A stretch of 24,534 nt of DNA, taken from positions 1-24,534 of IMG/VR virus record IMGVR_UViG_3300040856_000966; one strand, given 5' to 3'. The translations under genes and the position numbers were made by a program. Positions 2,780 through 9,219 of this stretch are shown piece after piece. A model generated the notes under the pieces. That model was not told where the DNA came from. It made no database searches and saw only the letters and a list, made by a program, of their open reading frames with translations. This DNA comes from a virus. How positions within the stretch are numbered: position 1 is the stretch's first letter; every line of letters starts with the position of its first letter.

Positions 2780-5700
2780 ATGCCAATAGAAAGCTCAGGT
2801 GAAATTAGATTAAGAGGTGCTGCTGGTGACAACAGAACTGATATTAACGAAGAGATCAACGGTAACGCAACTGATACTGATGTTTCTTTAGGTACATTAA
2901 ATACATCCGCGTTTACTAATGTTGCTGATGGCACAACTGTATCCGGTAGATCTATGTCTGAAATGCGTGGTTATGCCGCGTTTGATTCTGCTTTTCCTTC
3001 TACTGAAGCTGATGGTGCTTTAGGTGAAAGTTTATTGCTTAATAGTAATGATTCTACATATTTAAGATTTACACCTTCTTTAACAGGAAACGAATTAGTT
3101 TATACTGTAAGTTGTTGGGTTAAAAAACAAAATGATAGTACTGTTTATTTATTAGGTTCAAAAAATGGTAGTTATTTAGATGGTGGAATAATACAATTAT
3201 CTGGCAACACTGTGTCTTATAGCGTTAATGGTAATGTATATAATAAAAACTTTACAATTCCAACATTAGATTATAGTTCTTGGTATAATTTTGTAATGGC
3301 TATTGATCATACTAAATCTTATGTAGAAGATAGAATAAGATTATATATTAATGGTATAGAAATAAAAGAATACAGTACAGCTAATTCAGGTTTACCACCT
3401 CAAAATTATAATTCTCCCGCTTTTAATCAATCTAATGTACCAATAGATATTGGTATGCTTGCTGGTTATTTTACAGCTTATGCAGATATTACAATAGCCG
3501 ACTTTAAATTTATAGACGGTAAACAACTACGCCCAGATAGCTTTGGTGAGTTAGTGCAAGGTATATGGATACCTAAAGCATTTAATACACCTAGTACAGA
3601 TACAGAAATTACAGCTAATCTTTTGGCTAATTATCAGTTAAATGGTGACGTAACGGATGAAACTACAAATTATAACGGTACAAATACTAATGTAACTTTT
3701 TATCCTAATAATTATGGTATAGGTGATTTTAATGGAAGTTCTAGTAAAATAACATTACCTTCTAGCGCTAATTTATCTCCTACAAATAATTTTTCTTGTT
3801 CTGTTTGGTTTAATTCAGATGTTTCATCAACTTTTTCTTCTATTATTGCTTATAATGCTTCGGCGGGTCCTTATTGGAGTATATTTACACACTCTTCTGG
3901 CACAAATAATTTAAGAATATCAGTTGCTGGAAATAATTATTATACGCCTGATTATTCTTATAGACCAGGAGAATGGCATCACGTATCATTTTCAAAATCA
4001 TCAACCACTGGTGTACAAGTATATTTAGATGGTATAAAAGTAGTAGACGAACCTAGTGCTACTAGTAATGCTTCAGCGGTTGATAATGGTGATGTTAGAA
4101 TAGGTTCCTATAAAAATAATTATTATTATTTTAATGGAAAAATTGGAGCTGTTAAAATATTTAATGCTCCTTTAACTGAAAGCGAAAATTTACAAGAATA
4201 CAACGCTACAAAACACAAATACACTTACGGTTTAAACGGTTTCTGGTTACCACTTAATAATACATCGACTGGTAGCATAGATAGTAGCAGTAATTTAAAA
4301 CTGCATTTAGATGCGTCTGATAGCTCTTCATATAGTGGTAGCGGTACAAACTGGAATGATTTAACTAGTAATAATAATGACGGTACAATATCAGGCGCAA
4401 GCTTTTTATCTTCAACTAATGGCGGTGTGTTTATTTTTGATGGTAGTAATGATAAAGTTGATTTAAATTCTTTACAAAGTTTTTTTGGACAAAAACAAAC
4501 CTTTACAGTTGAATTATGGTTTAATGCGCCTAGTTCTTCAACTGGCAACAGATCATTATTTGATGATTATAATTATTCTAATCAAAATATAGCTCTTTAT
4601 TTATATGATGGAGTTTTAAATTATTTCGGTAGATATAATAATATTGATATAGGAGGTATAAATTCTGGATCAGTAACCTATAATGATAATAAGTGGCACC
4701 ATGTTATTGTTACATCTGATCAATCTACTATAAAGTTATATGCGGATGGTAAACTTATTGATAGTGGAAGTGTACCCTCAGCATCTTATTCCGGAGGAAC
4801 ACCAAGTGTTGGTATAGGAAGACAAACTCATCCAGGTTCTTCAACTTATGGTTATTGGGTGGGTAAAATAGCACAAGTAAGAGTATATGATAAAGCTTTA
4901 ACAGCTCAAGAAGTTATTACAAACTACCGCGCTACACAAGGTAACTACGAACAAGTAAGTACAGTAGATATATCTGGTAATGCTAATAGCTTTACATCAA
5001 CTAATATAGATGCTACAGATCATATTAAAGATGAGCCATTAGATAATTATCCAACTTTTTCATTTAATCAAAGTGCTATGACAGGTAGCAACTGCGTTTA
5101 TAGTAATGGTGGACTTACTGTTGATAATACTTCAATTGGTAGTGCATATGCAAGGCATTCTGGCCCTGCATTACCTACCACAGGAAAATGGTATTGGGAG
5201 GCTACGTATACAGGTAATGGTTTTGGTTATTGTTTGTTTTCAGGTATAGTTCCTGAAAATTTTTGGTATAGTGCTACGGGTTCTTCTATGCGACAATTTG
5301 CAGCTAGCTATGGAATATATGGTTTAGAAGACGATGGAGATTTTTGGGCGCTTGGTACGAATACATTAGACTTAACTACATTAAATACTACAGATAAAAC
5401 CGCTGGTTTTGCTTATGACGCTGATAATGGAGATTTATATATTTACATAGAGGGCGTTGTACAAAACTCAGGCAATGCCGTTGCAACAGGATTAAGTGGA
5501 GAAAAGAAAATATTTGCTCAAGTTGCTGGAGCTGCGGGACACAGCGGTTTAATTTTTGATTTTGGTCAAAATGGATTTAAATATGATCCACCAATAGGCT
5601 ATTTATCTCTAAACACTAAAAACCTTCCAGCCCCTGCGTTTGACCCAGATGGTGCAACACCAGATAAACCAAGTAATTACTTTAAAGCTGTAACATATCA

Positions 5701-8700
5701 AGGTAACGGTGGTACACAAGGTGAAGCTTATGGTTATAAAGAAGGTAGTAGAGCTGCGGTGTTTAATGGTAGTAGTAGTAGGATTACTATACCTGAAATA
5801 TCTCCTGATTCTATATCTATGTGGATTAATTTGGATACTCTTAATAGATACGATGCTCCACTTGGTCATTCAACAAACACTGCAAATTATATATATTGGG
5901 CAGATAGTTCAGAATCTTATCAATTAAGATTAGGGGGTTCTTTATTTGGAAGTGGTACTGCAAAAGATACAGTTGGTGCTGTTGGTGGTTGGGTTAATGT
6001 TATTTTTGTAGATAATGGTTCAGGAACTGTAACTTGTTATATAAATGGAAATAGCGCAGGTAGTGTTAGTGGAAGTTTACCTTCTTTTAATGAAATAGGA
6101 GGAAGAACAGCAGGAACAGACCAATATTTACAAGGCAAAATAGACGAAGTAAGATTTTTTGACAAAGCATTAAACTCAACAGAAGTAGGTTATCTTTATA
6201 ATGATGATACATCTAACATTGATGCTATTAGTAACCTTGTTGCGCATTATGATATGGAAGGTGATGCAAATGATAGCTCTGGTTATGCGGGGGATACTGT
6301 GGTTACATTATCTAGTGATGCTTATGGATATGCTTATGCTAATAGTTCTGTAAATGCTGGTAAATATTATTGGGAAATTGATTATTTCGAATCTTATTAT
6401 GGCAGTACTGGTGTATTAATGGCTGGGGTTGTTAATACTAACTATAAAACAACAAGTTGGCATTCAGGGACAAATTATTTCTACTATGCAGGTAATGGTA
6501 ATAAATATTCTAATGGCAGTAGTTCTGGTTATTCATCTGCTTATAATGCTCCAGTTACTATTGGTGTAAAATTAGATATGACAAATGGAACTATCGGTTT
6601 TACAAGAAATGGATCGGATTTAGGCACTGCTTATACAGGTTTGTCAGGTTATTATCATCCTGCGGTTGGTACTGGTATTGCAGCTGATAAAATCAAATTT
6701 GTATTTGATTCAAATGATTGGGTATATTCAGCACCAAGTGGATATAGTGAATGGACAGCACAAATAACTTCCCCTATAATTGCAGGGGGTGGAGCTACCG
6801 CCGTACAAGAAACATATAACGGTACAGACACTAACATAACTTACACTCAAGATAAACCTTATGGTAATATTGATGTTGGGTTTGCCCCGGATTTGGTGTG
6901 GATAAAATCAAGAAATGCTTCAGCAAGTCATGTATTATCAGATTCCGTAAGAGGTGCTAATTTAAAATTAAGGACTAATAGCACAGCACAAGAGGCAGGA
7001 ACAGACTACGGAGTTGTAACTTCTTTTGATGCAAATGGATTTACAGTTGGTGGAACTATTGATACAGGAGATGTAAATTATTTTGATAGGACTTACGTCG
7101 CTTGGGCTTGGAAAGCAGGAGGAAAAGCTGTTGAAAACACAGATGGAGTAACATCAGGTAGTGTAACTGCGGTAACTTCAACAGTTAGTGCTAATCAAGA
7201 TGCAGGATTTAGTATTAATAAATTCACAACACCTTCAAGTGGATTTCCTTCTTGGGGTCACGGATTATCTGAATCACCCGAACTAATAATATTAAAAGCA
7301 ACAGGATTAACGCAAAATTGGATTGTTTACGCTCCTTCAATATTAGGACAAAAAGATGGAAATTTAAATACGACTGCTGCTTTTACTTCTTATTCCCCTG
7401 ATATTATAAGCGTAGATAGTAGCAAAATTGACATAGGTCGTTCAGGATATGGATTAAGTGGTAGTTCAACTTACATCGCCTACTGCTTCCATTCAGTAGA
7501 TGGTTTCTCTAAAATTGGCTCGTACACTGGAAATGGTTCATCTGATGGCCCATTTGTTTATACAGGGTTTAAACCGGCTTGGATAATGGTTAAATCTGCT
7601 TCAGCAGGAAACAGCTATAATAATTGGTTTATCTACGATAATGCTAGAACAAGAAGTAATGCTACTATGCCTGGTTTAGCAGCAGACGTTTCTGGTGCAG
7701 AATTTAATAATTCAAGTGGCCATTTAACTTTTTCAAATGGTTTTAAAATAAACTCAAGCGGAGGCGAGTTCAATACAAATGGTCATACCTACATCTACAT
7801 GGCATTTGCTGAAGACCCAGTTAAATACTCTAACGGTGTAGCTACATTAGGTGATGGTAATGAATTTATTCAAGGTGGTAATTACCCTGAAGATAATTTT
7901 AATACTACATTGTATACAGGAACCGGGGCGGCACAAAAAATTACTACAGGCATTGATGCTGATTTTGTGTGGACTAAAACTAGAACATATTCAAGTGTAA
8001 CAAGCCATAGGTTGGTTGATACTTTAAGAGGACCAAAAAACCATTTATATCTTCCAAATAATTTAATTGAAACTTTTGATGCGGCTGGTATTACAATTGA
8101 AGATGATGGATTTTCATTTGCAGGTAATGAAGGGGCTAACCTTTCAGGAGCACCAACTGTTGCGTGGTCATGGAAAGCTGCTGGTAATGCTAATACATAT
8201 AATATATTAGAAAACGGTACTGTAACATCAAGTGCATCTGCTTCTACTTTAGGATTAACAAATAGTACGGTTACATTAAATGGTATTAGTGCTAATAAAG
8301 ATAATGGTTTTAGTATTATTAAATATACAGCTTCAGGCGATAGTGGTCAAAAAGTAGATCATGGGCTTTCTAAACCGCCTGAATTTATGATTATTAAAAA
8401 TTTAACAACAGCACAAAACTGGCTAGCTTATAATACAGTAACTAATTTAGGAAATTCAGATTTAGATTATGGTTATTTGAGTCTTAATTATGCATTTAAT
8501 TATTATGGGAATAGTGGCACTAAATATCCTGACTCATCAATAATAAACCTAGGAACATCTACTTTTGATGGGTCTAGCGATTCATTTATATGTTATGCTT
8601 GGCATTCTGTTCCTGGTTTTAGTAAAATAGGATATTACACAAGTAATGCTTCAGTGAAAATACAAACTGGTTTTCAACCAAAATGGATAATGATTAAGTA

Positions 8701-8926
8701 TGCCGGTGTGGCAAATAATTGGTGGATAATGGACACGCATAGGTACGGGGGAGAGACTGGGTTGCATGGTGGTATGTTAGTTAAACCATATTTAATTGCA
8801 GATGATTCAGTTAATGAATCTTCGGGTCCAATTAATGGTTCGGTTGAATTTGTTGAAGATGGATTTTACCCAACAAACTTTTTTAATTCAAATGGTGTAA
8901 TTTACATGGCATTTGCACACAGATAA
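2780..8926 (+). CDS. Giant LamG/SPRY adhesin-like tail protein (2,048 aa)
   Basis: This modular protein probably sits at the virion surface and contacts host glycans. The N-terminus (MPIESSGEIRLRG, then DVSLGTLNTSAF) is of a kind seen at the start of many marine phage tail proteins and may be the virion anchor. Modules in order: LamG-like about 80-265, 276-478 and 500-722, recognisable by FDGS or FNGS, W(H/Y)xxV and the closing VRVYDKAL-like strand. Then come an SPRY-like module about 758-946 (GKWYWEATY), LamG about 960-1145, and a second SPRY about 1173-1330 (GKYYWEIDY). Finally there are six modules of the GFxPxWIxxK type, arranged as two copies of an A-B-C set (1345-1680 and 1710-2048). 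There is no S74 domain, no enzyme motif and no signal peptide. ATG at 2780 follows the previous stop by 3 bases and has no Shine-Dalgarno. Virion role is inferred from module content and position. Confidence 0.82.
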   Translation: MPIESSGEIRLRGAAGDNRTDINEEINGNATDTDVSLGTLNTSAFTNVADGTTVSGRSMSEMRGYAAFDSAFPSTEADGALGESLLLNSNDSTYLRFTPSLTGNELVYTVSCWVKKQNDSTVYLLGSKNGSYLDGGIIQLSGNTVSYSVNGNVYNKNFTIPTLDYSSWYNFVMAIDHTKSYVEDRIRLYINGIEIKEYSTANSGLPPQNYNSPAFNQSNVPIDIGMLAGYFTAYADITIADFKFIDGKQLRPDSFGELVQGIWIPKAFNTPSTDTEITANLLANYQLNGDVTDETTNYNGTNTNVTFYPNNYGIGDFNGSSSKITLPSSANLSPTNNFSCSVWFNSDVSSTFSSIIAYNASAGPYWSIFTHSSGTNNLRISVAGNNYYTPDYSYRPGEWHHVSFSKSSTTGVQVYLDGIKVVDEPSATSNASAVDNGDVRIGSYKNNYYYFNGKIGAVKIFNAPLTESENLQEYNATKHKYTYGLNGFWLPLNNTSTGSIDSSSNLKLHLDASDSSSYSGSGTNWNDLTSNNNDGTISGASFLSSTNGGVFIFDGSNDKVDLNSLQSFFGQKQTFTVELWFNAPSSSTGNRSLFDDYNYSNQNIALYLYDGVLNYFGRYNNIDIGGINSGSVTYNDNKWHHVIVTSDQSTIKLYADGKLIDSGSVPSASYSGGTPSVGIGRQTHPGSSTYGYWVGKIAQVRVYDKALTAQEVITNYRATQGNYEQVSTVDISGNANSFTSTNIDATDHIKDEPLDNYPTFSFNQSAMTGSNCVYSNGGLTVDNTSIGSAYARHSGPALPTTGKWYWEATYTGNGFGYCLFSGIVPENFWYSATGSSMRQFAASYGIYGLEDDGDFWALGTNTLDLTTLNTTDKTAGFAYDADNGDLYIYIEGVVQNSGNAVATGLSGEKKIFAQVAGAAGHSGLIFDFGQNGFKYDPPIGYLSLNTKNLPAPAFDPDGATPDKPSNYFKAVTYQGNGGTQGEAYGYKEGSRAAVFNGSSSRITIPEISPDSISMWINLDTLNRYDAPLGHSTNTANYIYWADSSESYQLRLGGSLFGSGTAKDTVGAVGGWVNVIFVDNGSGTVTCYINGNSAGSVSGSLPSFNEIGGRTAGTDQYLQGKIDEVRFFDKALNSTEVGYLYNDDTSNIDAISNLVAHYDMEGDANDSSGYAGDTVVTLSSDAYGYAYANSSVNAGKYYWEIDYFESYYGSTGVLMAGVVNTNYKTTSWHSGTNYFYYAGNGNKYSNGSSSGYSSAYNAPVTIGVKLDMTNGTIGFTRNGSDLGTAYTGLSGYYHPAVGTGIAADKIKFVFDSNDWVYSAPSGYSEWTAQITSPIIAGGGATAVQETYNGTDTNITYTQDKPYGNIDVGFAPDLVWIKSRNASASHVLSDSVRGANLKLRTNSTAQEAGTDYGVVTSFDANGFTVGGTIDTGDVNYFDRTYVAWAWKAGGKAVENTDGVTSGSVTAVTSTVSANQDAGFSINKFTTPSSGFPSWGHGLSESPELIILKATGLTQNWIVYAPSILGQKDGNLNTTAAFTSYSPDIISVDSSKIDIGRSGYGLSGSSTYIAYCFHSVDGFSKIGSYTGNGSSDGPFVYTGFKPAWIMVKSASAGNSYNNWFIYDNARTRSNATMPGLAADVSGAEFNNSSGHLTFSNGFKINSSGGEFNTNGHTYIYMAFAEDPVKYSNGVATLGDGNEFIQGGNYPEDNFNTTLYTGTGAAQKITTGIDADFVWTKTRTYSSVTSHRLVDTLRGPKNHLYLPNNLIETFDAAGITIEDDGFSFAGNEGANLSGAPTVAWSWKAAGNANTYNILENGTVTSSASASTLGLTNSTVTLNGISANKDNGFSIIKYTASGDSGQKVDHGLSKPPEFMIIKNLTTAQNWLAYNTVTNLGNSDLDYGYLSLNYAFNYYGNSGTKYPDSSIINLGTSTFDGSSDSFICYAWHSVPGFSKIGYYTSNASVKIQTGFQPKWIMIKYAGVANNWWIMDTHRYGGETGLHGGMLVKPYLIADDSVNESSGPINGSVEFVEDGFYPTNFFNSNGVIYMAFAHR
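6812..7819 (+). repeat. First copy of A-B-C super-repeat in the adhesin
   Basis: This covers residues 1345-1680 of the adhesin. Module A ends VAWAWKAGG, module B ends IAYCFHSVDGFSKIGSYTGN, and module C ends YIYMAFAEDP. The same order of module endings recurs in the second copy at 7907-8923. Similarity is clear in protein but weak in DNA. Confidence 0.75.
7907..8923 (+). repeat. Second copy of A-B-C super-repeat in the adhesin
   Basis: This covers residues 1710-2048. Module A ends VAWSWKAAG, module B ends ICYAWHSVPGFSKIGYYTSN, and module C ends VIYMAFAHR, which is also the end of the protein. It is almost the same length as the first copy (339 against 336 residues). Confidence 0.75.
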
Positions 8927-8967
8927 AAATACGTAATAAATTATTATATTAACTTAAATTTTATACA

Positions 8968-9219
8968 ATGAAAAATCAAATTAAAACTGAAGAGCTGACT
9001 AAGCTTCAAAATTTATCAACTGTGTTAAAAACAACACAAACACAATTAGGGTCAATTGAAATACAAAAGCATACACTTTTACATAGATATGACCTGATTA
9101 GTCAAGAGTTAAATAAATTTAAATCTGAACTACAAGAAACTTATGGTAAGATTAATATCAACGTAGAAGACGGTAGTTACGAAACAATTAAAGAAGATGA
9201 ATCTAATACGAAAGATTAG
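8968..9219 (+). CDS. Small coiled-coil protein of unknown function
   Basis: The 83-residue product is mostly one predicted coiled coil. Leu/Ile heptad spacing runs from about residue 8 to 60 (EELTKLQNL, then LGSIEIQKHTLLHRYDLISQELNKF). A conserved-looking YGKININVEDGSYE segment and an acidic tail follow. Small proteins with an IQKHxLLH-like core occur near the terminase in marine phages; I recognise the type but know no function for it. A 41-base A/T-rich gap without a Shine-Dalgarno precedes ATG. The next gene may start inside this one. A structural or assembly role is only inferred from the neighbours. Confidence 0.72.
   Translation: MKNQIKTEELTKLQNLSTVLKTTQTQLGSIEIQKHTLLHRYDLISQELNKFKSELQETYGKININVEDGSYETIKEDESNTKD

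Follow-up and report, generated by a model that had tools for sequence, protein, structure and literature searches.

The virus-derived DNA analyzed here (IMG/VR record IMGVR_UViG_3300040856_000966, positions 1–24,534, hereafter the window) encodes a 2,048-aa tail-fibre-like protein that ends in two tandem copies of a block of three modules in the order A-B-C. By Pfam, each A-B-C set of this open reading frame (ORF) is one DUF7483 domain (PF24299, model of 330 positions), a family common among marine phages, so that the three-module block itself is an already known family and not new. New to the present analysis is the observation that the three modules, each of ~100 aa, are paralogous to one another, and exchange of single modules by recombination is well supported. 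The full explanation that we consider probable is a tail-fibre-like adhesin with a three-slot tip, the modules of which are exchanged singly by recombination. The original prediction, made from the sequence alone, had taken the three-module block, and not the single module, to be the unit of evolution; this is contradicted by modules that have been replaced singly between neighbors of 85–100% identity, with discordant single modules also seen in cultured isolates and in module B1 of the window. A-B-C is instead supported as an architectural unit and, by structure prediction, as a folding unit.

Relatives were collected by four scans of viral sequences, one with the two-block query and three with modules A, B, and C as separate queries so that whole blocks were not favored; each scan contributed its best 80 relatives (of 280, 80, 267, and 394, respectively), and three loci representing the window itself (L081–L083) were excluded. 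Modules were compared across 283 distinct blocks, those having a module shorter than 75 aa being omitted, and block pairs from different loci were counted when at least one module had at least 85% amino acid identity and called discordant when another had 60% or less. Discordance was found in 55 of the 80 qualifying pairs, with 4 more being intermediate. All six two-state patterns were present (shared C only, 17 pairs; A only, 13; B only, 8; A and C, 5; B and C, 5; A and B, 3), and 4 further discordant pairs had one module of intermediate identity. Loci L021 and L058, for example, are 98.5% identical in DNA over the 1,604 and 671 nt flanking the B module, with B proteins of 46% identity, and L180 and L183 have B, C, and 4,110 nt (99.6%) in common and differ in A. 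Alleles of one slot are ~40% identical. Distances of A, B, and C correlated weakly with one another (Spearman 0.10–0.28), compared with 0.37–0.51 between halves of one module; this set comprised 91 of 119 blocks filtered to <85% mean identity, a filter that favors discordant pairs, hence the recount over all 283. Fragments at least 70% identical in otherwise divergent proteins, which is the domain-shuffling criterion in the portion of Smug et al. (2023, PMC10684548) considered here, are present. Transfer between first and second blocks was rare; the two-block proteins gave a single pair for A and a single pair for B.

The same exchange was observed in cultured isolates, where it is seen without metagenome assembly. 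Phages RB11-B, S-B43, and RN05-S share the host Synechococcus MW02. RB11-B and S-B43 have B modules of 99% identity, with A and C both at 58%, whereas RB11-B and RN05-S agree in C (94%) and not in A (53%) or B (40%). At the DNA level the latter pair is 96–100% identical along 600 nt on the upstream side, 48–86% across A and B, and 94–100% within C and downstream. Among 31 isolate blocks (465 pairs), just two pairs had any module at 75% identity or more, and both were mosaic. In the window, block 1 was compared with two relatives: L244, the closest genome found (TerL 87–88% identical), matches A, B, and C at 58, 45, and 59%, whereas the more distant L161 (TerL 79–80%) matches them at 37, 81, and 39%, so B1 of the window and its neighboring modules differ in history.

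Where exchange takes place was read from a less biased tract scan, with no selection on module identity, which covered 296 of 314 blocks and recorded tracts of at least 120 nt at 90% identity or more. It yielded 115 tract ends between mid-A and mid-C, from 73 block pairs and not independent of one another. Of these, 91 fell in half-modules facing a junction and 47 lay no more than 45 nt from a junction centre, against 25% expected (p = 1e-4 if the ends were independent, which they are not). An earlier tally placed 33 of 34 and 30 of 35 ends within 60 nt, and it is not relied on because the pairs had been preselected as discordant. Variability is lowest at the borders (A/B, 0.96 bits; B/C, 1.39 bits) compared with 2.0–2.3 bits in module interiors, and the longest direct repeat across the two blocks of the window (44 nt, 82%) is the A/B border together with the beginning of B. 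Crossover by homology at the borders would account both for the swaps and for the preserved order.

The paralogy of the modules was indicated by a hidden Markov model (HMM) built on any one of them, which, left free, took in the other two; this was the first hint of homology. Because free iteration thus fused all three into a single profile, modules were assigned competitively. Profile comparison gave scores of 97.4 (A-B), 115.0 (A-C), and 72.0 (B-C) over almost full-length alignments, whereas 15 controls (9 reversed profiles and 6 comparisons with LamG or SPRY) scored 8–24. The modules scored 8.1–13.4 in hhalign against LamG or SPRY profiles, at the level of the reversed controls, although a distant common fold is conceivable. 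Over 314 blocks the best identity between slots was 48% for A-B, 56% for A-C, and 48% for B-C, compared with up to 100% within a slot. The slots are thus exclusive, which indicates that the triplication is old and that A, B, and C have been distinct types for a long time.

Within the window protein, the six module motifs stand in the order first described (residues 1442, 1570, 1671, 1796, 1941, and 2040), and like modules of the two blocks are indeed closest to each other, with pairwise z scores of 12.0 (A1/A2), 22.8 (B1/B2), and 17.8 (C1/C2) over 300 shuffles each. The best of the 12 cross-type pairs were A1/C1 (5.4) and B2/C2 (5.1), the only two to beat all shuffles, and most cross-type pairs of this protein scored at chance; with scores graded in this way, the modules are not alike in every pairing. 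Some details of the first description did not survive. The ending assigned to module B, FHSVDGFSKIGSYTGN, is wrong: B already finishes at HSV, and GFSKIGSYTGN forms the opening strand of C, as placed by the HMM borders and by strand E245–251 of the structure model. The cut in the second motif set therefore falls one strand too late. Set lengths of 336 and 339 residues become 341 (1340–1680) and 348 (1701–2048) by HMM borders (stop-to-stop residue numbers in that run are +1 relative to the protein numbering used here). On sequence inspection the pattern GFxPxWIxxK holds for C1 and C2, with A1, A2, B1, and B2 matching loosely. The two blocks are an old pair, at 28–47% identity per module, and are no closer than block copies in other proteins (mean 42–45% over 59 within-protein pairs).

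The order of modules is nearly invariant, as had been anticipated for related proteins. In the first scan, 88 module-bearing ORFs (80 viral loci and the window) read ABC in 50 cases, ABCABC in 30, ABCABCABC in 1, and partial strings in 7, of which 6 lie at a locus end and the seventh (L077) ends 11 bases from the contig end. The combined scans gave 258 distinct module-bearing ORFs, of which 167 were clear of locus ends, and 160 of these 167 read (ABC)n, with 1, 2, or 3 block copies per ORF. The 7 exceptions comprise two ORFs in L116, one AABCBC, one AABCBCABC, and three ABCBC. In L116 a frame change apparently breaks an ABCABC gene into an AB part and a BCABC part, either a sequencing error or a pseudogene. 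The AABCBC-type strings, found in L196 and L197, resemble one block nested within the A-B linker of another and read naturally as such an insertion. The two-block query also matched 69 of 50,697 phage records, mainly Pelagibacter, Synechococcus, and Roseobacter phages, and in the 25 of these retrieved for module reading all 28 ORFs read (ABC)n. Pelagibacter phage HTVC200P carries one DUF7483 gene (L322:3483–4523) that is oriented against its listed neighbors and a second that is on their strand, possibly owing to inversion.

No spacer separates B from C in 318 of 324 cases, and the A-B linker is 13 or 14 residues long in 207 of 307. Inserts of at least 60 residues occur in the A-B linker in 25 of 307 cases versus 2 of 324 for B-C. 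L067 and L068 have an insert of ~130 residues between B and C, the sole ones that large seen at this junction. Among 302 blocks, 17 have a LamG domain as the A-B insert, and 13 of the 17 are the second of two blocks. In L244 a LamG-like insert (ORF residues 1896–2133) occupies the A2-B2 linker of the second block; the window has a 33-residue linker at this place and may have lost an insert.

An AlphaFold2 model of a single block (83 aligned blocks) had a mean predicted local distance difference test (pLDDT) of 86.4 and a predicted template modelling score (pTM) of 0.87, with only residues 1–25 below 50, and a BFVD model of a protein of 38% identity superposes on it at 2.0 Å over 341 columns. 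One block is thus predicted to be a single packed unit, which agrees with the suggestion that the three module types may make one folded unit.

The position and partners of DUF7483 point to a role at the fibre tip. Of the 82 ORFs ending in C, 81 place the final C module at most 60 aa from the stop. In 69 of 179 ORFs with an intact 5' end, the first A is preceded by fewer than 60 residues; the other 110 are fusions with a longer N-terminal part. LamG is present in 112 and SPRY in 68. LamG, SPRY, and tail-fibre genes recur as neighbors or fusion partners; many pelagiphages carry DUF7483 as a separate ORF of ~340 aa, and in isolate pelagiviruses a stand-alone gene closely follows genes for a tail fibre and for a lectin-domain protein. 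A C-terminal adhesin domain in a fibre-like ORF next to tail genes, as used to recognize tail-fibre receptor binding, is found here. The DUF7483 pair is most likely a host-surface-binding distal fibre tip.

Several results weigh against the account given above. Mid-module halves contain 24 of the 115 tract ends, so exchange is not restricted to borders, and conserved borders stretch apparent tracts and blur the real crossover points. A two-block model (16 sequences) reached a pTM of 0.52, with the linker below 50, and did not define the mutual orientation of the blocks; cautiously read, it suggests two units joined by a flexible tether. No PDB chain matched by sequence, the best Foldseek match (7pln_B, E 5e-3, probability 0.30) is weak and below the level for naming a fold, and the best VIA-align match is likewise weak (Z 5.2), most matches lying mid-block and including cupins and glycosidase beta domains. 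Fold matches this weak, with no PDB sequence match, do not indicate carbohydrate binding by the block.

The block could also serve the virion in a structural or decoration role and not as a receptor binder, its variation arising from other pressures. PHROG 19943 (virion structural protein, head and packaging) matches part of the block and agrees with this, as does the lack of a good match to a fold of known ligand binding. The other matching family, PHROG 24898, is a tail fiber protein, and the C-terminal place, the LamG and SPRY partners, and the adjacency to tail-fibre genes make a purely structural role unlikely. Inheritance and exchange of the block solely as a whole would fit the nearly invariant order, the one predicted folded unit, and the 21 of 80 pairs similar in all three modules, which also count against single-module exchange; against the discordant majority, the three Synechococcus phages, and the weak distance correlations it is decidedly improbable. 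The block as unit of inheritance was itself rejected on the distance correlations and shared-allele counts. Mosaics made by joining metagenome contigs at conserved borders are to be considered, because most sequences are uncultured contigs and the junctions conserved; however, the isolates show the same mosaic. In addition, exact runs within the outermost 90 nt at either end of the divergent module reach at most 37 nt and stay below 21 nt at 49 of the 66 junctions, the A-B linker itself being uncounted, and we give such chimeras very little credence. Quick, uneven substitution in single modules could draw on their variable interiors but is scarcely credible, given the steep drop of DNA identity near borders and divergent alleles that recur nearly unchanged in other backgrounds (the B module of L058 at 93% in L036, and that of RB11-B in S-B43).

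Single-module exchange within a three-slot tip could then operate as follows. Tandem DUF7483 domains stand at the C terminus of a tail-fibre-like adhesin, each made up of three putatively beta-rich modules in slots A, B, and C and predicted to pack as a unit. The short conserved A/B and B/C borders would serve as crossover zones for homologous recombination, as the tract ends suggest, and an incoming module would be another allele of the same slot only, so that order survives. Tandem duplication of whole blocks adds a second, slower level, and the A-B linker takes up further domains such as LamG, as relatives show. A bolder extension, which we put forward tentatively and hold to be rather less probable than the exchange itself, is that DUF7483 forms a combinatorial recognition library, in which the fixed slots of three paralogous binding modules draw alleles, through recombination at the conserved borders, from a pool shared across ocean phage lineages, the combination and not point mutation sets host range, and the repertoire is enlarged further wherever blocks stand in tandem or are nested.

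The features of the window protein are collected in Table 1.

Table 1. The two-block protein of the window and its parts.
Feature	Position	Strand	Residues	Basis and remarks
2,048-aa ORF	2780..8926	+		Pfam; LamG (PF13385) repeats, SPRY, then two C-terminal DUF7483 blocks
Strongest LamG (Laminin_G_3) stretch, one of four	4439..4915	+	554-712	Pfam
SPRY domain	6362..6709	+	1195-1310	Pfam; immediately N-terminal to block 1
Module A1	6797..7126	+	1340-1449	HMM borders
Module B1	7187..7498	+	1470-1573	HMM borders; B module of L161 81% identical
Module C1	7499..7819	+	1574-1680	HMM borders
Inter-block linker, 20 residues	7820..7879	+		HMM borders; low confidence in two-block model
Module A2	7880..8188	+	1701-1803	HMM borders
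A2-B2 linker, long (33 residues)	8189..8287	+		HMM borders; position of LamG-like insert in L244
Module B2	8288..8611	+	1837-1944	HMM borders
Module C2	8612..8923	+	1945-2048	HMM borders; runs to stop codon

Over the whole protein DUF7483 scored 481.4 bits in two stretches, above the curated cut-off of 27 bits; the separate matches scored 313.1, 114.7, and 78.3 bits, and both copies pass. Block 1 covers positions 20–330 of the model and block 2 covers 2–124 and 109–328 in two pieces. The sole NCBIfam match of the protein was in the LamG region and below cut-off. Upstream (2–2776) lies a 924-aa fibre-like ORF with a Peptidase_S74 chaperone domain at its end and about four NWDTAYGWGDHS-type repeats; downstream are TerL, portal, and structural genes by PHROGs. 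In a phage collection, the window TerL matched those of Flavobacterium, Cellulophaga, and related phages (~46% in the Flavobacterium matches listed) and was 63% identical to that of the uncultured podovirus ctfjg026, across the entire record of which no DUF7483 match was found. A Bacteroidota host is plausible. With regard to a diversity-generating retroelement, no reverse transcriptase was found among nine window ORFs searched against Pfam or eight against PHROGs, and the only repeats at 6700–9000 bearing on a template repeat were module-scale, the window being a genome fragment. As to an invertible switch, the repeat scan gave just weak inverted repeats with arms 78–84% complementary.

With these observations, a hitherto unnamed Pfam domain acquires a clear hypothesis, that of a three-slot adhesin whose pieces are swappable without loss of fold. 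Piecewise trade of modules may let phages remodel the cell-binding tip, and isolates that share a host strain but differ in single modules are natural experiments as to which tip piece decides the cell bound, a question relevant to phages of SAR11 and marine cyanobacteria. Whole-fibre-gene phylogenies or host predictions for these phages would average over pieces of different history.

In the open-access literature searched, no paper was found that names DUF7483 or that treats RB11-B together with Synechococcus phage, nor was an account found of a three-slot, slot-preserving module exchange. Each A-B-C set covers nearly the whole PF24299 model, although the description line of that model does not contain the three-paralogue make-up or the slot-wise exchange reported here. 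In work on metaviromic islands (Mizuno et al. 2014, PMC3909814), marine phage populations vary in tail fibre genes, in lectin-like genes, and, inside genes, in recognition regions, which resembles the variable recognition parts described here; that study reports under-recruitment, however, and its main text does not use the word "recombination" and gives no rule of module exchange. The closest parallel is in Smug et al., where, in the same portion of the text, near-identical fragments in otherwise divergent phage tail proteins were taken as recent recombination, and such fragments in divergent receptor-binding proteins are found here as well. The tail examples in that portion swap non-homologous C-terminal domains, whereas in DUF7483 homologous modules are replaced singly in fixed slots.

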